From positions 62,001 through 126,000 of the forward strand of contig NZ_WUUT01000006.1 in NCBI RefSeq assembly GCF_009831575.1: a DNA stretch of 64,000 nucleotides, in the 5' to 3' direction. The position numbers and the translations under genes were made by a program. This stretch comes from Halovenus carboxidivorans. Its GTDB lineage: Archaea > Halobacteriota > Halobacteria > Halobacteriales > Haloarculaceae. Numbering within the stretch: position 1 is the stretch's first letter; every line of letters starts with the position of its first letter. Below, in pieces: positions 24,550 to 37,198 of this stretch. Below the pieces are notes generated by a model. It was not told the origin of the DNA. It saw only the letters and a list, made by a program, of their open reading frames with translations, and did no database searches.

Positions 24550-25206
24550 TCACCACTCGTCTCGAAGCCGTTCGAGGTCGGCCTCGGTATCGATGTCCCG
24601 GCGGACGCCCGCATCGCCGGTTTCGACCAGCGCCGACCGCTCATCCTCCAGGAGAATCTCCCGGCCACCGACATCACCGTCGACCGCGGCCAGCGCGTCG
24701 AAGTGCTGCGCGTCGAACAGCACCGGATTCCCCCGCTGTCCCCCGTCGGCCGCCGCCAGCGCCGTCCCCGCACCGTCGCGGTAGGCGGCCACCAGCGCGT
24801 CGACGCTCTCCGGCCTGACCGCCGGCATATCCCCCAAGGCGAACACCGCAGCGGCGGCGTCGGGCACTCGCGCTCTGACCGCTCGCACGCCCGCCCGAAC
24901 GCTCGTCGCCTGGCCCTCCTCGTAGTCCGGGTTCTCGACGGTCACGGTATCGAATCCGTCGAGAGCGTCGGTGACGCTGTCGCCGTCGGCACCGACGACG
25001 ACCACCACGGGATCGACGGCCGCCGCGGCGAGCGTACGGGCGGCGTGGCTCACCAGCGGTTCGCCGTCCACCTCCGCGAGCAGTTTGTTGGCCTCGCCGA
25101 ACCGCGAACTCGTCCCGGCGGCCAGCAATACGCCCGCGACAGGGCCCTCACGGACGGGGTTCTCGACGCCCGCCGGCGGCTCGACGACCGGTAGCTCCGG
25201 CGTCAT
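24550..25206 (-). CDS. MocA-type molybdenum cofactor cytidylyltransferase
   Basis: NTP transferase of 218 residues. The nucleotide loop reads VLLAAGTSSRFGEANKLL; LAAG rather than the LAGG of GTP-specific MobA suggests CTP use, that is, synthesis of molybdopterin cytosine dinucleotide (MCD). Other fold motifs are VVVVGADGDSV and FALGDMPAVRPESV (GDMP for metal binding). CO dehydrogenase uses MCD, and the cox operon begins about 2 kb away, so it is a strong candidate supplier. Its ATG overlaps the moeA stop by four bases. Confidence 0.85.
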   Translation of the reverse strand: MTPELPVVEPPAGVENPVREGPVAGVLLAAGTSSRFGEANKLLAEVDGEPLVSHAARTLAAAAVDPVVVVVGADGDSVTDALDGFDTVTVENPDYEEGQATSVRAGVRAVRARVPDAAAAVFALGDMPAVRPESVDALVAAYRDGAGTALAAADGGQRGNPVLFDAQHFDALAAVDGDVGGREILLEDERSALVETGDAGVRRDIDTEADLERLRDEW

Positions 25207-26417
25207 TCGACGACCGGGTAGGGGACGATTTCGACGGTCTCACCGGCCGCGCGCTCGGTCTCGGTGACGAGGAAGCCGTCGGCGCGGGACGCCCGCGTGC
25301 TGGAGGAGAGCACGCTCGGATCGAAGGCCTCCTCGTAGATCGACAGCGCCGAGTCGACGTGGCCCAGCGGCGTCGCCTCGCCGTCATCGAGAGTCACCGG
25401 AACGACGTACTCGAACCCCTCCGGCCCGAGGCCGAGGTCGGTCGACAGCGTCGCCGACACGGTCGCTAGCTCGGACGGACCGACGAACAGCGCCCGAGCG
25501 ACGAGCGTCGTGATGACGTGTGCGCCGACCGGTTTGCCGGGGATGGCGACCGCGACGGCGTCGTGGTCGGGCAGACGGGCGACGGCGATCGGCTTCCCGG
25601 GGCGGATCCGAACCCGGTGAAAGAGCACGTCACCGAGGTCTTCGAGCGCCCGGACGACGTGGTCCTTGTCGCCGACGCTGGTCCCGCCGGTCGTCACGAC
25701 CGCGTCGTACTCGCCTGCGAGCGCGTCGATGCGGTCCCGGACGCGGTCGTACTCGTCGGGGACGGTCCCCTCGTGGGTCGGACGGTGGCCCCACGAGCGC
25801 AGCAACCCCGCCAGCATCGGCGAGTCCAGATCCCGCTGGCGGCCCTCGTGGATCTCGGTCCCGGTCGCCAAAAGCGCCGCGTCGAACCGTTCGTGGACGG
25901 TCACCTCGTCGTACCCCAGATCCCCGAGCAGCAGCGCGTCCTTCGGCGAGAGCCGTTCGCCCGCCGCGAAGAGTTGCTCGCCCGCCGCGAGGTTGCTTCC
26001 CCGCTCGTAGACGTACGTGCCGGGGTCGATGTCGCTCCCGTCAAGTCTGCCGTCCTCGACCGTCGCCTCCTCCTGTTTGAGGACGGCGTTGGCCTCCGGT
26101 GGGAGCGGCGCACCGGTGAAGATGCGGACGGCCTCCCCGTCGTCGATCGACGGCGGATCGTCCTCGGGAAAGACCTCCTCCTCCCGGAGGTCGAGCGGGT
26201 AGCCGTCGGTGGCGTCGAAGGCGTAGCCGTCCATCGTCGACCGGGAGACCGGCGGGCGGTCCTGCTGGGCGACGATCCCCGAGGCGAGCGTCCGGCCCGC
26301 CGCTCCGGCGAGCGCGACCTCCTCGGTCGGCTGATCGGCCAACACCGTCTCCCGCAGATCGAGCAGTCGATCTACCGCGTCGCTTCGCCACACCATGTCG
26401 TCGTGATCGTGGCTCAT
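25203..26417 (-). CDS. moeA: molybdopterin molybdotransferase MoeA (variant)
   Basis: Inserts molybdate into adenylylated molybdopterin. The 404-residue protein has the family landmarks SRSTMDGYAF, FTGAPLPPEANAVLKQEE, the phosphate-binding VVTTGGTSVGDKDHV, and a C-terminal IPGKPVGAHV. The last motif differs from the usual LPGNPVSA (N to K, S to G), so this may be a specialised paralogue. The start at 26417 (MSHDHDDMVW) is preferred; the upstream frame is antisense-like. It is translationally coupled to the MocA-type gene. Confidence 0.92.
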   Translation of the reverse strand: MSHDHDDMVWRSDAVDRLLDLRETVLADQPTEEVALAGAAGRTLASGIVAQQDRPPVSRSTMDGYAFDATDGYPLDLREEEVFPEDDPPSIDDGEAVRIFTGAPLPPEANAVLKQEEATVEDGRLDGSDIDPGTYVYERGSNLAAGEQLFAAGERLSPKDALLLGDLGYDEVTVHERFDAALLATGTEIHEGRQRDLDSPMLAGLLRSWGHRPTHEGTVPDEYDRVRDRIDALAGEYDAVVTTGGTSVGDKDHVVRALEDLGDVLFHRVRIRPGKPIAVARLPDHDAVAVAIPGKPVGAHVITTLVARALFVGPSELATVSATLSTDLGLGPEGFEYVVPVTLDDGEATPLGHVDSALSIYEEAFDPSVLSSSTRASRADGFLVTETERAAGETVEIVPYPVVE

Positions 26418-26449
26418 GCCCACCCGTTGCACACGGACGATCAAAAAGG

Positions 26450-26863
26450 TCAGACTGCCGCGGCAGTACCGAGTGCCGACAGCGTCCCGCGCACGTCCTC
26501 TTCGGAGACGCCGCCGCTCCGGAGACTGAAATGCAGTACCGTCAGCATCTCGCCGTCCGGAGCGGAGACGCCTCGGTGGTCGGTCCGCTCGAAGGCAAGC
26601 GGCGCCGGGTCCAGCGCCTCCTCGACGGCCTCGCCGTACCGCTCGGGCACCCGCAGCGTGACGGCGAACTGCCGGCCCGTCGGCACCCAGACGACCCCGC
26701 TGCGGTTGAACGACGTCGCCAGTCCCTCGGTGCCGAGATGGTCCCGGACCCGCGGGTGGTAGAACTCGTAGACGCACTGCCCGCCGGCGGTCTGCTGGCT
26801 GGGTTCGGCCACGGTCTCCCCCAGTTGTCCCCCCGCTGCCTCGAAAAACGCCGCACAGTCCAT
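26450..26863 (-). CDS. conserved hypothetical protein in molybdenum gene cluster
   Basis: A 137-residue soluble protein, probably an alpha/beta fold, with the segments QCVYEFYHPRVRDHLGTEGL and RYGEAVEEALDPAPLAFERT. It has a single Cys pair far apart and no recognisable catalytic motif. It lies 32 bp upstream of moeA on the same strand, so an accessory role in Mo-enzyme maturation is possible from position alone. I do not recognise the family. Confidence 0.62.
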   Translation of the reverse strand: MDCAAFFEAAGGQLGETVAEPSQQTAGGQCVYEFYHPRVRDHLGTEGLATSFNRSGVVWVPTGRQFAVTLRVPERYGEAVEEALDPAPLAFERTDHRGVSAPDGEMLTVLHFSLRSGGVSEEDVRGTLSALGTAAAV

Positions 26864-26971
26864 GCCGGCTATTGTCCACCCGTCGATGATAAACGTCGGG
26901 GCCGTCCCGGTTCTCGCGCCGCCATAACATTGATGTAGTCGATTTGTCTAAGAGTCTACTAGGTGGCACGT

Positions 26972-27273: not shown

Positions 27274-27867
27274 ATGGAATTCGAAGGAGCATTCGAACTG
27301 GAAGGTGTAGAACCGGAAGACGCATGGGTAATGTTATCGGATCCGATCGCGGTCCGAGACGCGCTGAAGGGGTGTCGGTACATCACCCCGCTGGACGACG
27401 AGGATTTCAACTTCGACGACTACGAAGCCGAGGAGGACGTCGAGACGCTTCCGGAAGCAGATCCGGAGGAGGTCGCCGACCGTGCGTTCCGGGAAGAAAC
27501 TGATTATGCGGCGCTGATGCAGGTCGGTGTCGGCAGCGTCAAGCCCCGGTTCGAGACGCAGGTCCGGATCGGTGAGCGCGACGACGAGAACTACGTGATG
27601 ACGGCGACCGGCAGCGGCGCTGCGAGCAGCAGCGAGTTCGAGATGGAGTCGTGGATGGAGATCGAGGAGACCGAAAACGGCTCCCGGATCAACTGGGGGA
27701 CCGAAGCCGACGTCTCCGGTCGCGTCGCACAACTGGGGAACCGCGTTCTCAACCCCGTCGCGGACAAGATCGTGAACAACTTCTTCAACAACATCGAGCA
27801 ACAGATGACCGACGTCGAAGAGAGCGACGAGGGGGGTGTCACCTCTCGACTCCGTAACATGCTCTAA
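27274..27867 (+). CDS. coxG: CO dehydrogenase subunit G-like protein (SRPBCC fold)
   Basis: CoxG homologue of 197 residues (COG3427, SRPBCC/START-like fold), known in bacteria to help attach CO dehydrogenase to the membrane. Visible landmarks are the first strand FEGAFELEGVEPEDAW, LSDPIAVRDALKGC, and the C-terminal helix LNPVADKIVNNFFNNIEQQM. It carries an acidic insertion at residues 45-72 not usual in bacterial CoxG. It heads the operon here, whereas in bacteria coxG usually follows coxDEF. Two bases separate it from coxM. Confidence 0.88.
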   Translation: MEFEGAFELEGVEPEDAWVMLSDPIAVRDALKGCRYITPLDDEDFNFDDYEAEEDVETLPEADPEEVADRAFREETDYAALMQVGVGSVKPRFETQVRIGERDDENYVMTATGSGAASSSEFEMESWMEIEETENGSRINWGTEADVSGRVAQLGNRVLNPVADKIVNNFFNNIEQQMTDVEESDEGGVTSRLRNML

Positions 27868-27869
27868 CC

Positions 27870-28799
27870 ATGAAAGCAGCAAACTTCGAACATCACGAAC
27901 CGGAGACTATCGAGGAGGCGGTCAGCCTGCTCGAGAGTCTGGACGAACCGACGATTCTCGCCGGGGGGCAGAGTCTCATCCCGATGCTGCGGTTCCGTCT
28001 CGCCCGTCCGGACACCGTGATCGACCTCAACGGGCTGACGGAACTGGAGTACATCCGGGAGGACGACGGTCACCTGAAGATCGGCGCGCTGGCCCGCCAC
28101 GTCGACGTGGAGGAGTCGGCGATCATCGACCGCAACTACGGGAGTTTCGCCGACGCCGCGCCGCTGATCGCGGACCCGCAGATCCGCAACCAGGGGACCG
28201 TCGCCGGTTCGATCGCACAGTCCGACCCGAAAGGCGACTGGGGGACCGTTCTGCTGGCACACGACGGCGAAGTCGTCGCACAGGGGCCGGACGGCGAGCG
28301 GACTATTCCTGCGAAGGACTTCTTCCTGCTGCCGTACGACAACATGCTCGGCGAGGACGAACTCATCACCGAGATTCGCGTCCCCGAGTCCGGCAGCAAC
28401 GAGGGCAGCGCCTACCACAAACTCAAACGGAAAGTCGGCGACTACGCGATGGCCGGTTCGGCGGCCCGCGTCCGTCTCGACGGCGGCGTCATCGAGGACG
28501 CCGACGTCGCGCTGACCGCCGTCGACATCACCAACATCGCCGTCGACGAGGCCGCCGAGGAACTCGAAGGCGAGCGCCCCTCGGCTGACCTGTTCAGGGA
28601 GGCGGGCAAGATTGCCGCCGAGCAATCGAACCCCGAATCCGACGAACACGGCAGCGCAGCGTACAAACGCAATATGGTCCGCGTGCTCACCCAGCGCGCG
28701 CTGGCCGACGCGACCGAACGCGCCACGCAGGACGGTCCGGCGGCCGATTTCGGAACCGACCAACTGACGCCCGAAGGAATGGCCGCGGAGGGTGACTGA
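27870..28799 (+). CDS. coxM: CO dehydrogenase medium (FAD-binding) subunit
   Basis: Accepts electrons from CoxS and passes them to the respiratory chain. The 309-residue protein has the FAD loops [19 protein letters not shown] near residues 30-50 and [20 protein letters not shown] near 110 (counterparts of the AGGHS and TIGG motifs), followed by the C-terminal CODH FAD domain. Length fits the family, with a slightly longer acidic tail. It is the second gene of the operon and only two bases before coxS. Confidence 0.95.
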
Positions 28800-28801
28800 G
28801 G

Positions 28802-29436
28802 ATGACGAAAAAGGAGATTTCGCTCACGATCAACGGCACAGAACACGAACTGGAGGTCGAGCCCCGCAAACTGCTGGTCCACGCCATCCGGGAGGATCTC
28901 GATCTGACCGGCACCCACATCGGCTGTGACACCGGCAACTGCGGCGCCTGTACCGTCTATATGGACGGCCAGGCGGTCAAGTCCTGTCTCACCTTCGCCG
29001 TCCAGGCCGACGGCAGCGAGATCACCACCGTCGAGGGGATGGAAGACCACCCCGACGCGGGCATGGGGGAGTCCGACCTCCACCCGATCCAGGAGGGCTT
29101 TCGCGAGATGCACGGCCTGCAGTGTGGCTACTGTACGCCCGGGATGATCATGTCGGCCCGCGCCCTGCTGGAGGAGAATCCCGACCCGACCGAGGAGGAG
29201 ATCCGCGAGAGCATCAGCGGCAACCTCTGTCGGTGCACCGGCTACCAGAACATCGTGAAGGCCATCCAGTACGCCGCCGACGTGATGAACGGCCGGGAAC
29301 CGCCGGAGTCGCCGGTCGAACACGGCGAGGCGGCCGAACCCGAGGCCGCCTCCGACGGCGGCACGCCGATGTGCGAGGCGGACGACTGCTGTATGGACGT
29401 CGATACGGATTTCGAGCCACCGGGAGGTGACCACAA

Positions 29437-29440
<4 letters not shown>
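28802..29440 (+). CDS. coxS: CO dehydrogenase small (2Fe-2S) subunit with Cys-rich tail
   Basis: Carries two 2Fe-2S clusters between CoxL and CoxM. The plant-type cluster uses Cys42, Cys47, Cys50 and Cys62 (CDTGNCGAC and KSC). The second uses Cys108, Cys111, Cys143 and Cys145 (QCGYC and LCRCTG). The family is usually about 160 residues; this protein has 212, with an acidic tail that contains three extra cysteines ([10 protein letters not shown] at 190-199). Its stop overlaps the coxL start. Confidence 0.95.
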
Positions 29441-31926
<2,486 letters not shown>

Positions 31927-31932
31927 CAGCAG

Positions 31933-33036
31933 ATGACCGACGACACAGACCCACGCGTCGACGGTCCGGACAGCCGTGCGGACGCGGCCGCGCCCGAGCG
32001 CGTCGCCGACCTGGAACGGGAGTACGAGCAGGCGGGTCAGCCGTTCGCGCGGCTGACGGTCGTCCGCCGCGAGCCGCCGGTATCGGCGAACGTCGGGGAC
32101 CGAGCGATCGTCACCCCTGACGGCGACCTCGTCGGCTGGATCGGCGGCGCGGCCTGCGCCCAGTCCGTCGCCGTCAAGGAGGCCCAGGCCGCCCTGGAGT
32201 CGGGCGAACCCCGACTCGTCGGGCTCGCGCCCGACCCCGACGACGTGGACCGGCCGGGCCTGCAGAGCTACCCGATGACCTGCCACAGCGGCGGCACGCT
32301 CGAACTGTTCGTCGAACCGGTGACGCCGACGCCCCGGCTGGCGATCGTCGGTGACTCACCGATTGCACGGGCGCTGCGCCGACTGGCGGTCGACCTCACC
32401 TACGAGGTGCGGGCCGTCACCGACGGGGCCGACCCGGACGGCGCCGACGAGACGGTCCACCCCGAGGACACCGCGGCCGTCGAGGCGGCGCTGTCCGACG
32501 CCGACTACGCCGTCGTCGCCTCTATGGGCGAGTACGACGACACGGGACTGGCGGCCGCGCTCGCGGGAGCGCCGGAGTACGTCGGTCTCGTCGCCAGCGA
32601 CCGCCGCCGCGACGAACTGGCCGACCAGGTCGCAGACAGTCTCGCACTCGACGCCGAGGCGGTGATCGAGGCGGTCACGACGCCGGCCGGCCTCGACGTG
32701 GGAGCGAAGACGCCCGAGGAGATCGCCGTCAGCGTCCTCGCGGAACTGGTCGCGGTCCGCCGCGACGCCGGCGACGTGGCCGTCGACATCGGTGACGCCG
32801 ACGAGATCTCGGTCGATACGGATTCCGCGGGCCACGAGCACGACCATCGCGACCACGGCGGCGACACCGACGACGAGACGGTCGTCGATCCGGTCTGTGG
32901 CATGGACGTCGTACCCGAGGAGGCCGCGGCGACGGTCGAGCACGACGGCCAGACCGTCCACTTCTGTGGGGAGGGCTGTGCGGAGGCCTTCGCCGACGCA
33001 CCGGAGGAGTATCTGGGGGCGGTCACCGATGGCTGA
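31933..33036 (+). CDS. XdhC/CoxI-family maturation protein fused to YHS domain
   Basis: A 367-residue fusion. Residues 25-280 resemble XdhC, which binds the Mo cofactor and promotes its sulfuration: conserved Cys75 in GGAACAQS and Cys117 in PMTCHSGG, then a Rossmann-type C-terminal half (LAIVGDSPIARAL). A His/Asp linker HEHDHRDH (301-308) follows, then a YHS domain (319-362) with Cys322 in DPVCGMDV and Cys345/Cys349 in FCGEGC. YHS domains often bind copper and other soft metals and occur in Cu ATPases. A role in copper handling for CoxL is inferred. Confidence 0.88.
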   Translation: MTDDTDPRVDGPDSRADAAAPERVADLEREYEQAGQPFARLTVVRREPPVSANVGDRAIVTPDGDLVGWIGGAACAQSVAVKEAQAALESGEPRLVGLAPDPDDVDRPGLQSYPMTCHSGGTLELFVEPVTPTPRLAIVGDSPIARALRRLAVDLTYEVRAVTDGADPDGADETVHPEDTAAVEAALSDADYAVVASMGEYDDTGLAAALAGAPEYVGLVASDRRRDELADQVADSLALDAEAVIEAVTTPAGLDVGAKTPEEIAVSVLAELVAVRRDAGDVAVDIGDADEISVDTDSAGHEHDHRDHGGDTDDETVVDPVCGMDVVPEEAAATVEHDGQTVHFCGEGCAEAFADAPEEYLGAVTDG

Positions 33037-33970
33037 CGCCTTCGCCGACCTCACCGAGGCCGACCTCCGGGAGCGGTTCGAGCAGGCCGATTACGTCGCC
33101 GACGACGAACTCACGACGACGGTCTACCTGGCGCTGCAGATGGGCAAACCCCTGCTCGTCGAGGGCGAACCCGGCGCGGGCAAGACCGAACTGGGGAAGG
33201 TGCTGGCCGAGGGGTTCGACACCGATCTCGTGCGCCTGCAGTGTTACGAGGGGCTGGCCGCCGAGCACGCGCTGTACGAGTGGAACTACACCAAGCAGTT
33301 GCTCGCGGTCCAGTCGGGCGACGGTGCCGCCGACGCGGCCGAACCGACGGTCGGGGCCGACGGCGCGGCGGAGTCGGTGTTCTCCGACGAGTATCTCTTC
33401 GAGCGGCCGCTGCTCGAAGCGTTGCGCCACGACGGGCCGACGCCGCCGGTGCTGCTCATCGACGAGGTCGACCGCGCCGACGAGGAGTTCGAGGCCTTCC
33501 TGCTGGAGGTGCTCAGTGACTTCCAGGTCACGATTCCGGAGTACGGCACCGTCGCGGCCGACCAGCCGCCGGTCGTCATTATCACCTCGAACCGGACGCG
33601 GGCGCTGAGTGACGCCCTCAAGCGGCGCTGTCTGTACCTCCACGTCGAACCGCCGACCTTCGAGGAGGAGGTCGAAATCGTCCGCCGGAAGGTCCCGCAA
33701 CTGGATGCGGCCGTCGCCGCGGAGGTCTGTGCCATCGTGCAGGAACTCCGCGAGGAGGCCTTCCTGAAACAGCCCGGCGTCGCGGAGACGCTGGACTGGG
33801 CGCGGGCGGTTGCGACGCTGCGTAACGACGACGACTCGGCGCTGACCCCGGCGGAGATCGAACACACTCTCGGCGCGCTGCTGAAAGAAGCCGAGGACAT
33901 CGAGCGCGTCGACACCGACCTGCTCGAACGGCTCCGAGAGGCCGCCAGCGAAGCGCGTGCAACCACATGA
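33029..33970 (+). CDS. coxD: CoxD, MoxR-type AAA+ ATPase
   Basis: AAA+ chaperone of the MoxR group required in bacteria for building the Mo-S-Cu centre. The 313 residues include Walker A EGEPGAGKT (45-53), Walker B VLLIDEVDRAD, sensor 1 VIITSNRTRALSD with the following KRRC, and a C-terminal lid. A 25-residue insertion before SVFSDEYLFERP is specific to this protein. The ATG at 33029 overlaps the XdhC-YHS stop by eight bases; the frame upstream of it is a shadow. Confidence 0.93.
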   Translation: MADAFADLTEADLRERFEQADYVADDELTTTVYLALQMGKPLLVEGEPGAGKTELGKVLAEGFDTDLVRLQCYEGLAAEHALYEWNYTKQLLAVQSGDGAADAAEPTVGADGAAESVFSDEYLFERPLLEALRHDGPTPPVLLIDEVDRADEEFEAFLLEVLSDFQVTIPEYGTVAADQPPVVIITSNRTRALSDALKRRCLYLHVEPPTFEEEVEIVRRKVPQLDAAVAAEVCAIVQELREEAFLKQPGVAETLDWARAVATLRNDDDSALTPAEIEHTLGALLKEAEDIERVDTDLLERLREAASEARATT

Positions 33971-35286
33971 CCGACGACGTTCCCGACCTCACGGCCGCGC
34001 GCGAGCACGTCCTCCAGTCGGTCGTCCGCTTCGCCCGCCGACTCCGGGCCGAAGGGGCGATTGTCCCGGCGGACGCCGCGCTCACCGCGGTCGAGGCCCT
34101 CGCGGAGGTCGGGTTGCGCGACCGGGCGGCCGTCCGGGCGGCCATGCACGCCGCGCTGGTCACGAATCCGCGCGACAGCGCCGTCTTCGACGAGCAGTTC
34201 GACACCTTCTGGTACCGGCTCCGAACCGGGCTGGAAGGCACCGCCGCCCACGACGAGACCGGCGACCGGGCAGAGAACGTCCCGGGCGACGACCGGACTC
34301 CCTCGACCGATACCGAGGGGCAACTCCCCGACACGTCGATTGCGGAGACGCTCGACGGCAGCGGCGACCTGGCCGACGAGGAGGGAACAATCGAGTCCAG
34401 GCGGGTCGCGGACAGCGAGGGGGCGGCTCTGGAGGGCGACCCGGGCGACGAGCGGGCCGGAACGTACAGCGCCGTCGGCGACCGAACCAGCGTCGAGGAA
34501 GACGCGGTGACGACGACCGTCGACGACGGGACGATGCGACGCGTCGAGGCGGCGCTGGCGACGCTGGCCGGCCGGCGCTGGGACCGCACCCGCAGCGGCG
34601 AGACCGTCGACGTCCGCCGGGCGCTCCGGGAGAGCATGGCGACCGGCGGCGTCACCATGTCGCTGCCGGACCGCGACCGGGCCGAATCCGCCTTCCGGGT
34701 CTGCGTGCTCGTGGACGTGAGCCGCTCCGTCCTCGACGCCGTCGACCGGGAGTTTCTGCTCTCCGTGCTCGACGCGCTGGTCGACCGCGCCCGCTCGACC
34801 CGGGTGTTCTTCTTCGACACGGAGATCCGCGAGGTGACCGACGCCTTCGCCGGCGGTGATCCCGCTGCGGCCCTGGAGCGTGCCGAAGTGGACTGGGGGG
34901 GAGGCACCCGGATCGGCGCGTCGCTGTCGACGCTGCGGCGGCGATGGCCGACGGCCGTCGACCGCCGGACGGTCTCGCTGGTGATCAGCGACGGGCTGGA
35001 GGTCGGTGAGATCGACGAACTGGAACGGGGGGTATCCTGGCTCTCGCGGCGCTCGAAGGCGTTCGTCTGGCTCAATCCGCTGGCGGCCTCCCCCTCGTGG
35101 GAACCGACCTGCCGGGGGATGGCCGCCGTCGAGCCGTACCTCGACGGCCTCTTTGCCTTCGGCGGCCCCGCGGATCTCGACGACGCGGCCCGCCAGTTGG
35201 CCCGGCACGGTCCCGGCGGCCCGGTCGGCTACGAACACGACTTCCGCGACCGAACGGAGGCGGGGGACGGGGGTGTCTCGCCGTGA
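33967..35286 (+). CDS. coxE: CoxE, von Willebrand A-domain protein
   Basis: Partner of CoxD, needed for metal-centre assembly in Oligotropha-type systems. The C-terminal half has the VWA fold with MIDAS motif LVDVSRSVLDA (DxSxS), and a second acidic turn FFFDTEIREV; GGGTRIGASL supplies the conserved Thr. The N-terminal 90 residues form a helical CoxE region, followed by a disordered acidic stretch of about 100 residues. Length is 439. It overlaps coxD and the next gene by four bases each. Confidence 0.92.
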   Translation: MTDDVPDLTAAREHVLQSVVRFARRLRAEGAIVPADAALTAVEALAEVGLRDRAAVRAAMHAALVTNPRDSAVFDEQFDTFWYRLRTGLEGTAAHDETGDRAENVPGDDRTPSTDTEGQLPDTSIAETLDGSGDLADEEGTIESRRVADSEGAALEGDPGDERAGTYSAVGDRTSVEEDAVTTTVDDGTMRRVEAALATLAGRRWDRTRSGETVDVRRALRESMATGGVTMSLPDRDRAESAFRVCVLVDVSRSVLDAVDREFLLSVLDALVDRARSTRVFFFDTEIREVTDAFAGGDPAAALERAEVDWGGGTRIGASLSTLRRRWPTAVDRRTVSLVISDGLEVGEIDELERGVSWLSRRSKAFVWLNPLAASPSWEPTCRGMAAVEPYLDGLFAFGGPADLDDAARQLARHGPGGPVGYEHDFRDRTEAGDGGVSP

Positions 35287-36077
35287 CGGCGATTCTCGCC
35301 CGCGTCCGTGACCGTCTCGCCGACCGCGACGCGACCGATCCGGACGTGACCGTCGGCGACAGCGCGGTGCTGGTCGCGCTGACCTGCGGGGGCGACAGGG
35401 TGGCGGGGCTGGCACACCGCCCGCCGGGGGACCCGCCGGCGCTCCCCGACTCGGCCGACGCACTGGCGTCGCTGTCGACCGACGCCGAGAACAGGGTCGG
35501 CAGAGCGGTCGGCATCGCGACGCTGAACGCCCTCTCAACGCCTGACATCGACTGGGAGCGCGGCGACCCGATGGCCACGTTGACCGACGAGGCGGCGGTG
35601 GTGACGACCGTCGGGCTGTTTCGGCCCGCGTTCCGGAAGTTCGGCACCGCGACCGTCCGGGTGATCGAGCGGGATCCGCCACCGGCGGAGTCGGTCGAGG
35701 CGCCGCCGGAAGTGACCGTCGAGACCTACGAACCGGGGGAGGCCGCGGCGGCGATGGCCGGTGCCGACGTCTGTTTCGTGACCGGATCGGTGCTGCTCTA
35801 CGGGGGGTTCGGGGCCTATCTCGACGCGGCGGCCGAGGCGACGGTCTCGCCGGTCGTGCTGATCGGTTCGACGGCCTCTCACCTGCCAGCGCCGGCGTTC
35901 GACGCCGGAGTCGACGTGGTCGCCGGTGCCCGGGTCACCGACATCGAAGCCGTCCGTGAGGGGGTGCGAGCGGGCGACTGCGGCACCGACCTGCACGACG
36001 CAGGCGTCGAGAAGGTGTACGTCACCGCGGAGCACGGACTGACAGACGACGACACACGCACGGAGATACAACCATGA
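35283..36077 (+). CDS. DUF364-like protein (putative heavy-metal chelation)
   Basis: A 264-residue cytoplasmic protein. Landmarks fit the PF04016/DUF364 fold: GRAVGIATLNALS, VVTTVGLFRPAFRKFG, a central acidic strand, VCFVTGSVLLYGGFGAYLDAA and PVVLIGSTASHLPAPAFDAGVDVVAG. The family was described as binding heavy metals in Desulfitobacterium-type structures. The start is a GTG at 35283 in a GTGA overlap with coxE; the downstream gene overlaps too, so it is firmly inside the cox operon. It is not part of the classic bacterial cox set; a metal-insertion role is inferred. Confidence 0.75.
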   Translation: MTAILARVRDRLADRDATDPDVTVGDSAVLVALTCGGDRVAGLAHRPPGDPPALPDSADALASLSTDAENRVGRAVGIATLNALSTPDIDWERGDPMATLTDEAAVVTTVGLFRPAFRKFGTATVRVIERDPPPAESVEAPPEVTVETYEPGEAAAAMAGADVCFVTGSVLLYGGFGAYLDAAAEATVSPVVLIGSTASHLPAPAFDAGVDVVAGARVTDIEAVREGVRAGDCGTDLHDAGVEKVYVTAEHGLTDDDTRTEIQP

Positions 36078-37198
36078 GCGACTCAGACTGGAGCGTACCG
36101 GAGAGTGAAGTACTGCAAGGTGTCGAAGAGATTCTCGACGGCGAGCACCGCGGCGTGCTCGCGACGATCATCGCCGTCGAGGGGAGCGCGTACCGCCGGC
36201 CGGGCGCGAAGATGGTCATCCCCGAGGAGGGGCCCGGCAGCGGCCACATCACCGCCGGCTGTCTGGAGGACGAACTCCAGCGCATCGCGGGCGAGGTGTT
36301 GGCGGCGGGTGAGCCCCGGATCGAACGGTACGACCTGCGGCCGGACTCCGAGGACGACGTCTGGGGGCTGGGGGTCGGCTGTAACGGCGTTCTGGACATC
36401 CTGATCGAACCAATCGACGAGTCCTACCGGCCGGTCACCGAGGCCGTCGCCGACGACCGCGACATCGGCGTCGTGACGGTCATCGAGGGCGGGCAGACCG
36501 GCACACGGGCGTACTACCACCCGGAAGACGGCGAGTTGGTGGCCAGCGACGGATTCCCGGCCGATCTCGCCGACCGGATCGGCGAGGCCGCGGCCGAACT
36601 CACCGCCCGCGGCCGGGCGGACACCGTCGAACTCGACGGGACGACGGTCTTCGTCGACGGGATCACTTCGCCCTCGGATCTCGTCGTCGTCGGGACGGGC
36701 AACGACGTGGCCCCGATTGCCGAGGTCGGCAAGCAGGCCGGCTTCCGCGTCACTGTCGTCGGCTTCCGGGGGGCCAACGCCACCGCCGACCGGTTTCCGG
36801 CCGCCGACGAGGTGCTGTCGACCTCGCCGGCACGGATCACCGAGACGCTGGATCTCGACGAGGATACCTACGTCGTCCTCGCGACCCACAACTTCGTCGA
36901 CGACCGTCTCGCCGTCGACGAACTGCTCGGGACCGACGTTCCCTACGTCGGACTGATGGGCCCGCGCAAGCGCTTCGAGCAGATGCGCGAGGAGTTCGAC
37001 GCCGAGGGCCGGGCGTTCTCCGAGGACGAACTGGACTCGCTGTACACACCGGTCGGCCTCGATCTGGGCGGCGGCAGTCCCTACCAGATCGCGCTCAGCA
37101 TCGTCAGCGAGGTCCTCGCGGTGGCGAACGACCGCGAGCCACAGCATCTCACCGAGCGGGCCGGTCCGATCCACGACCGCGTCGAGGTCGACCCCTGA
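36074..37198 (+). CDS. XdhC/CoxF-family maturation protein
   Basis: Second XdhC-family protein of the operon, 374 residues and without a YHS domain. The N-terminal domain has VEGSAYRRPGAKM, Cys63 in TAGCLEDEL and Cys103 in GVGCNGVLDI, the cysteines linked to Mo-cofactor binding. The C-terminal Rossmann domain has VVVGTGNDVAPIAEV and a final GLDLGGGSPYQIALSI. Equivalent to bacterial CoxF or CoxI, implicated in sulfur and copper loading of CoxL. It is the last gene of the operon and ends one base before the convergent pepF stop. Confidence 0.92.
   Translation: MSDSDWSVPESEVLQGVEEILDGEHRGVLATIIAVEGSAYRRPGAKMVIPEEGPGSGHITAGCLEDELQRIAGEVLAAGEPRIERYDLRPDSEDDVWGLGVGCNGVLDILIEPIDESYRPVTEAVADDRDIGVVTVIEGGQTGTRAYYHPEDGELVASDGFPADLADRIGEAAAELTARGRADTVELDGTTVFVDGITSPSDLVVVGTGNDVAPIAEVGKQAGFRVTVVGFRGANATADRFPAADEVLSTSPARITETLDLDEDTYVVLATHNFVDDRLAVDELLGTDVPYVGLMGPRKRFEQMREEFDAEGRAFSEDELDSLYTPVGLDLGGGSPYQIALSIVSEVLAVANDREPQHLTERAGPIHDRVEVDP

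Follow-up and report, generated by a model that had tools for sequence, protein, structure and literature searches.

The gene directly downstream of coxL in a cox cluster of Halovenus carboxidivorans encodes a CoxF protein that carries a YHS domain at its C terminus. On the strength of orthology, a linkage to form I CO dehydrogenase only, and the ligand sets present, from which we infer copper binding and transfer, we consider it moderately probable that this protein loads copper into form I CO dehydrogenase by the mechanism proposed below. To our knowledge, CO dehydrogenase is the only enzyme with a Mo-S-Cu site, and what has been learned so far of copper insertion comes from mutants of one alphaproteobacterium and from weak sequence motifs.

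Results

A single open frame joins an XdhC protein to a YHS domain

The window, by which we mean the whole stretch of 64,000 nucleotides that was analyzed, holds the gene and its neighbors as listed in Table 1. All three Pfam domains of the protein score above their cut-offs, and Cys75, Cys117, Cys322, Cys345, Cys349, and the HEHDHRDH segment lie at the positions given by the earlier note, in which this XdhC plus YHS architecture had been recognized. Reading of the minus strand of the gene is interrupted by a stop, and the opposite-strand frame beside it (33023-33865, minus) matched no Pfam family. The YHS match is the sole one at E <= 0.001 in the source genome.

Table 1. Positions in the window of the cox cluster genes and of the parts of the CoxF-YHS protein.
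Feature	Coordinates	Strand	Basis
MobA-like NTP transferase (putative MocA-type Moco nucleotide transfer)	24550-25206	-	PF12804
moeA, 588-aa frame	25203-26969	-	PF03453, PF00994
coxG	27274-27867	+	PF06240
coxM, FAD subunit	27870-28799	+	PF00941, PF03450
coxS, [2Fe-2S] subunit	28802-29440	+	PF01799, PF00111
coxL, form I Mo-Cu catalytic subunit	29437-31926	+	TIGR02416, 1211.6 bits (cut-off 991)
coxF-type gene, XdhC-linker-YHS protein, 367 aa	31933-33036	+	single open frame
XdhC_CoxI domain, residues 33-96	32029-32220	+	Pfam PF02625, 54.1 bits (cut-off 24.3)
CxSxG loop, Cys117-Gly121	32281-32295	+	alignment; equivalent of putative Cu-binding MCPSHGTM of O. carboxidovorans CoxF
XdhC_C Rossmann domain, residues 136-272	32338-32748	+	Pfam PF13478, 80.1 bits (cut-off 29.7)
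disordered linker with HEHDHRDH, residues 283-312	32779-32868	+	AlphaFold2 pLDDT <50, linker comparison
YHS (TRASH-like) domain, residues 317-363	32881-33021	+	Pfam PF04945, 50.4 bits (cut-off 30.3)
coxD, AAA+ ATPase, start overlapping the coxF-YHS gene end	33029-33970	+	PF07728
coxE, VWA protein	33967-35286	+	PF05762
DUF364/DUF4213 protein (putative heavy-metal chelation)	35283-36077	+	PF04016, 59.2 bits
second XdhC protein, CoxI group, no YHS	36074-37198	+	Pfam, NCBIfam, tree (SH-aLRT 96)

The structure predicted by AlphaFold2 from an input alignment of 52 rows has a mean pLDDT of 86.9 over the full protein, with values of about 95 in the XdhC part, below 50 in residues 283 to 312, and about 96 in the YHS domain. 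The XdhC part of this predicted structure shares its fold with 2we7/2we8 and 3on5 (VIA Z about 17). Its XdhC_CoxI domain holds the invariant Cys75 (32155-32157), which is present in 42/42 archaeal and 7/7 bacterial alignment rows.

The XdhC part belongs to the CoxF branch rather than the CoxI branch

In a tree restricted to the XdhC part, which was built by a quick method with SH-aLRT values and no bootstrap, has no firm root, and over-samples YHS-bearing rows, the fused proteins form one clade (SH-aLRT 99) with the YHS-less CoxF proteins of Oligotropha carboxidovorans and other Alphaproteobacteria. The CoxI proteins, among them the product of the second xdhC gene of the window, form a separate clade. 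This division agrees with published observations that liken CoxF to the XdhC proteins of other CO dehydrogenase operons and CoxI to PaoD (PMC2997495). The CxSxG loop is found in 106 of 107 CoxF rows versus none of 25 CoxI rows, and is conserved in CoxF proteins both with and without YHS. In O. carboxidovorans CoxF, the corresponding MCPSHGTM has been named as a putative copper-binding motif (PMC4240915).

Judged by the tree, by synteny, and by this loop, the window protein is orthologous to CoxF. Thus, the earlier description of it as a generic XdhC sulfuration factor gives way to this assignment, and the CoxI-type XdhC is encoded by the second xdhC gene. The NCBIfam equivalog models place the YHS-tailed protein below their cut-offs, both TIGR02964 for the XdhC of xanthine dehydrogenase (31.8 bits versus 161.6) and the XdhC equivalog NF045664 (86.0 bits versus 350). 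The window protein shares its clade, its CxSxG loop, and a cox cluster with CoxD and CoxE with the CoxF of O. (Afipia) carboxidovorans OM5, whereas the latter stops after the XdhC part and has neither the linker nor the YHS domain. XdhC proteins of the CoxI/PaoD type have the two XdhC Pfam domains in common with it but lack both the CxSxG loop and YHS.

Two other motifs, RHGxR and RGD, underlie a phytase/integrin model of O. carboxidovorans CoxF (PMC4240915). Considered as features of the CoxF family, RHGxR (phytase) and RGD were rejected, since they are conserved in just 3/132 and 15/132 rows, respectively.

The gene is part of a conserved form I cox cluster

The cluster runs from mocA and moeA, both on the minus strand, through coxG, coxM, coxS, coxL, the coxF-YHS gene, coxD, coxE, and the DUF364 gene to the second xdhC. 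The true start of moeA is probably further in than annotated, as the frame matches Pfam only from residue 202 on. The TIGR02416 score of coxL, together with the AYRCSFR copper loop at 30598-30618 that includes the copper ligand Cys391, identifies a form I Mo-Cu enzyme, and the best PDB matches of coxL are the CO dehydrogenases 8uem, 1ffu, and 1n5w.

The complete order from moeA to the second xdhC is present in 30 compared clusters, all haloarchaeal and the window included, and most other compared clusters are one or a few genes off this order. The coxF-type gene lies directly behind coxL in 40 fetched haloarchaeal clusters as well as in the window. The coxF-YHS gene keeps this place in L097, L071, and Thermomicrobium roseum, where coxD and coxE were not found adjoining; the compact form I clusters L097, L071, and L123 hold coxL and coxF-YHS with no adjoining coxD or coxE. 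Nearly all compared haloarchaeal form I clusters have a DUF364/DUF4213 gene after coxE and before the second xdhC, and no DUF364/DUF4213 match was found in the compared bacterial cox clusters. Going by its Pfam family, this would be a second metal-related cox gene.

YHS-tailed CoxF proteins accompany form I CoxL

The earlier note had proposed a search for the same architecture beside form I coxL genes, and there it was found in haloarchaea, actinomycetes, and Ktedonobacteria; a fusion common beside form II CoxL or xanthine dehydrogenases, which the note had set against its proposal, did not turn up in the genomes with form II-like CoxL only. Among 391 Halobacteria genomes, 41 encode a form I CoxL above the TIGR02416 cut-off (1199-1246 bits, the next score being 768), and the same 41 hold a CoxF-type XdhC, which is separated from all others by a gap in E from 1e-49 to 1e-26. 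YHS is present in 40 of these 41 genomes; the haloarchaeon G020 lacks it. XdhC and YHS occur in one frame in 0/59 Halobacteria with only lower-scoring CoxL, where XdhC is encoded in 58 and YHS somewhere in 43, with the nearest pair 12 kb apart.

Form I CoxL is encoded in 35 of 198 actinomycete genomes, and in 28 of the 35 (27/34 without the chosen centre genome) the adjacent XdhC carries YHS, a count made up of 16 found by Pfam and 12 found by reading frames, in which YHS is short and low-scoring. The other seven comprise three with XdhC lacking YHS, two cut by a contig end, and two with no XdhC within 3.6 kb. The fusion occurs in 0/43 actinomycetes with form II only; two further genomes whose only CoxL is partial and looks form I-like (G399 and G478) were excluded from both counts. 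For Ktedonobacteria with form I, XdhC-YHS is on the same contig in 22/25 genomes, on another contig in two more, and absent from one, versus 0/15 with form II only. Summed over the three classes, XdhC-YHS is absent from all 117 genomes whose coxL is form II-like only (Fisher p of 3e-27, 1e-14, and 2e-8 for Halobacteria, actinomycetes, and Ktedonobacteria, values that are descriptive because the genomes are related).

A scan of named genomes yielded 80 fused loci, 69 with an AYxCSFR CoxL and none with form II CoxL alone; because the scan picks out YHS-bearing or PM[TQ]CHS loci by pattern, these numbers serve linkage and not prevalence. The loci come from Chloroflexota, Actinomycetota, SAR324, Verrucomicrobiota, Bacteroidota, Gemmatimonadota, Myxococcota, Thermoplasmatota, Nitrososphaerota, and others. 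When six of the 11 remaining genomes were searched whole, form I CoxL over the cut-off was found in four (on another contig for L133 and L142, at a contig edge for L172, and in the same locus for L167), L135 gave a CoxL fragment at a contig edge, and none was found in the L194 MAG. The loci L141, L145, L159, L161, and L162 hold just part of the CoxL gene. Fused proteins beside form I CoxL are also encoded on plasmids of T. roseum, Paraburkholderia, Caballeronia, and Deinococcus.

The actinomycete G554, a seeming form II exception, encodes not an XdhC but a permease-like protein of the ArsP_1 type that, read by eye, ends in YHS (L238 7786-9039, minus). A fusion by chance, by a local event, or by an assembly accident was rejected, given that the same fusion recurs in 40/41 form I clusters of haloarchaea and across many bacterial phyla.

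Some CoxF lines appear to have lost the YHS domain

CoxF without YHS occurs in Alphaproteobacteria including O. carboxidovorans, in the haloarchaeon G020, in Nonomuraea, and in the actinomycetes G543, G476, and G449. On the tree, its absence corresponds to three changes (Alphaproteobacteria, Nonomuraea, and G020), and because these YHS-less lines are nested among YHS-bearing ones, the pattern looks like loss, which is the simpler reading. A motif scan of YHS-less clusters (L122, L127, L128, L210-L214, L068, L218, L219, and L234) found no separate YHS gene. That O. carboxidovorans and other Alphaproteobacteria have no YHS may be a reason why the tail went unnoticed.

Odd variants were also seen. 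In the Chloroflexi MAG loci L132 and L133, CoxF has two tandem YHS domains, and in the form I-linked CoxF of Deinococcus sp. AJ005 (L125 7998-9059) the first Cys of YHS is replaced by Asp and the second is shifted (SPVDG...YYFTCANC).

The YHS tail holds a candidate copper-binding ligand set

The arrangement D319-x2-C322-x22-C345-x3-C349 is an Asp/three-Cys set with the proper spacing for YHS/TRASH domains, and its four residues are candidate metal ligands. Indeed, Pro320, Cys322, Val326, Cys345, and Cys349 are invariant among 52 diverse fused sequences, Asp319 nearly so, and the motif is kept in 122/123 fused rows, with 21 to 23 residues between the two outer Cys in nearly all. These ligands are invariant among fused YHS domains of archaea, Chloroflexota, Actinomycetota, and others that share about 31 to 58% identity over the domain. 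Searched alone, the predicted YHS structure gave Foldseek matches at E > 0.1 only, the best being to aromatic monooxygenase YHS and ribosomal L24e (VIA Z 6.4 at most). Such weak matches are expected for 50 residues; they are consistent with a TRASH fold, short of proof.

The C-terminal YHS domain of the Mycobacterium phlei adenylyl cyclase has the same D-x2-C-x22-C-x3-C pattern. The cyclase needs this domain for copper-specific activation, for which the other ions tried were ineffective, and D178, C181, C204, and C208 have been proposed as the copper ligands (PMC4626032). The YHS domain of the window protein may likewise bind copper. Unlike the CoxF-YHS protein, the cyclase has a link of eight residues to its YHS, a regulatory role, and no known copper transfer. 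The archaeal TRASH metallochaperones or sensors MerH, CopT, and VNG1179C (ribosomal L24e fold) have a small metal-binding fold related to the tail, but these domains stand alone or are fused to regulators, and their metal can be Hg, Cu, or Cd. Binding of Hg or Cd by TRASH domains is documented (PMC3600143, PMC4626032).

Among PDB structures, the closest relatives of the tail are the YHS domains of toluene monooxygenase and phenol monooxygenase, and the toluene monooxygenase domain bound no metal in crystals (PMC4626032). This observation, the function of O. carboxidovorans CoxF without YHS (PMC4240915), and the retention of the Cys117 loop whether or not YHS is present would fit a module for structure or docking, either free of metal or holding zinc, that ties CoxF to CoxL, CoxD, or CoxE and leaves copper to be bound solely by the Cys117 loop. 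We regard this as unlikely, because pure docking would not need three Cys that are invariant where most of the domain is variable, and because the fusion is linked to the copper-containing form only.

YHS domains occur in other settings in these organisms. A 48-aa stand-alone YHS protein in haloarchaea (L102-L121, for example L117 5669-6548) is 57 to 62% identical to the fused YHS domains and is near-identical across haloarchaeal families, as in a mobile metal island, where it adjoins an Lrp/AsnC-TRASH regulator, an ABC transporter, and a plastocyanin-type copper protein. One haloarchaeon also encodes an ArsP_1-type permease that ends in a YHS domain (L104 2039-3514).

The linker is variable and predicted to be disordered

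The linkers of CoxF-YHS proteins span about 16 to 70 residues and vary in sequence; that of the window protein is predicted to be disordered. The His-rich linker described in the earlier note is real in the window protein but is not conserved: the median number of His across 42 haloarchaeal linkers is 0, and only those of the window and L081 are His-rich. As most linkers have no His, the idea that the family binds copper functionally through a His-rich linker was rejected. In place of HEHDHRDH, the linkers of L074, L079, L082, L086, L088, and L126 carry CCGGG-like or other Cys motifs, a hint that extra thiol or imidazole ligands were gained repeatedly.

The linker also bears on whether YHS might be a copper sensor or gate that switches CoxF on, with the inserted copper not coming from YHS. 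The best-studied enzyme-fused YHS, that of the M. phlei cyclase, is a copper switch (PMC4626032), and TRASH domains are copper sensors in archaeal regulators (PMC3551603, PMC3600143). A long, variable linker of predicted disorder suits a swinging carrier better than a rigid switch, the cyclase link being short by comparison, and we hold the sensor reading to be quite unlikely.

Discussion

The role that we favor for CoxF-YHS draws on mutant data from O. carboxidovorans. The enzyme of the coxF::km strain contained 0.043 Cu per enzyme versus 1.47 in that of the wild type grown likewise (H2), yet kept its Mo and near-stoichiometric cyanolysable sulfur, and CoxF was proposed as the copper supplier from these data (PMC4240915). 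Copper alone restored just 14% of the activity (PMC4240915), from which it follows that the sulfur of this enzyme is also partly misplaced. This species, whose CoxF has no YHS, inserts copper; thus, YHS is not strictly needed for insertion, and its part may be to improve affinity or specificity, not to serve as sole donor.

In the mechanism that we propose, the YHS domain, swinging on the disordered linker, would capture copper via Asp319, Cys322, Cys345, and Cys349 and hand it on, probably as Cu(I), either directly or through the CoxF-specific Cys117 (CxSxG) loop. The XdhC part would be docked on sulfurated apo-CoxL during this hand-over, CoxD (AAA+) and CoxE (VWA) would open access to the buried Mo site, and the end product would be Mo-S-Cu-S-Cys391. 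CoxE, like CoxF, is reportedly needed for copper in the O. carboxidovorans enzyme. The notion of a Mo-cofactor handler and a likely copper site for CO dehydrogenase in one polypeptide, first put forward from the window sequence, gains from the form I linkage and from the copper-type ligand set of YHS, and is qualified by the finding that YHS is not obligatory.

The YHS cysteines could instead carry persulfide for Mo sulfuration rather than copper, as XdhC sulfuration chaperones would suggest. The association of the XdhC family with sulfuration (PMC2997495) and the coxF::km sulfur, mostly unable to take up copper (PMC4240915), point this way. However, form II CoxL and the systems for xanthine and aldehyde dehydrogenase have the same need of Mo sulfuration, and in the sampled genomes no XdhC protein of theirs has a YHS; the near-normal cyanolysable sulfur of the copper-free mutant enzyme likewise renders this explanation improbable. 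That YHS has been carried along from an old fusion and has no present role, as at least three losses and the degenerate copy in Deinococcus might suggest, is very improbable given that archaea, Chloroflexota, Actinomycetota, and others retain it with invariant ligands at about 31 to 58% domain identity.

We found no published link of YHS with XdhC or CO dehydrogenase in a search that covered literature outside subscription, so that a prior mention may exist, and neither CoxF nor XdhC nor YHS comes up in the checked papers on how CO dehydrogenase is distributed. CoxF and YHS are each known; what appears to be undescribed is their union in one protein, how widely it occurs, its restriction to form I, and its lack in the model species.

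Whether most sampled aerobic CO oxidizers (haloarchaea, actinomycetes, Ktedonobacteria, and further phyla) obtain the copper of their Mo-S-Cu site from a YHS metallochaperone domain built into CoxF, with the O. carboxidovorans line having lost the domain, is in our estimate evenly balanced. If they do, the phytase/RGD model that has been published for the supply of copper would fail for the CoxF family. A conserved, compact candidate copper domain that is confined to the copper form and that O. carboxidovorans lacks makes the question of the copper donor directly testable with a 50-residue fragment. The XdhC-YHS gene is also an annotation mark for form I CO dehydrogenase, including that of actinobacteria and Chloroflexota, groups known as trace CO oxidizers.
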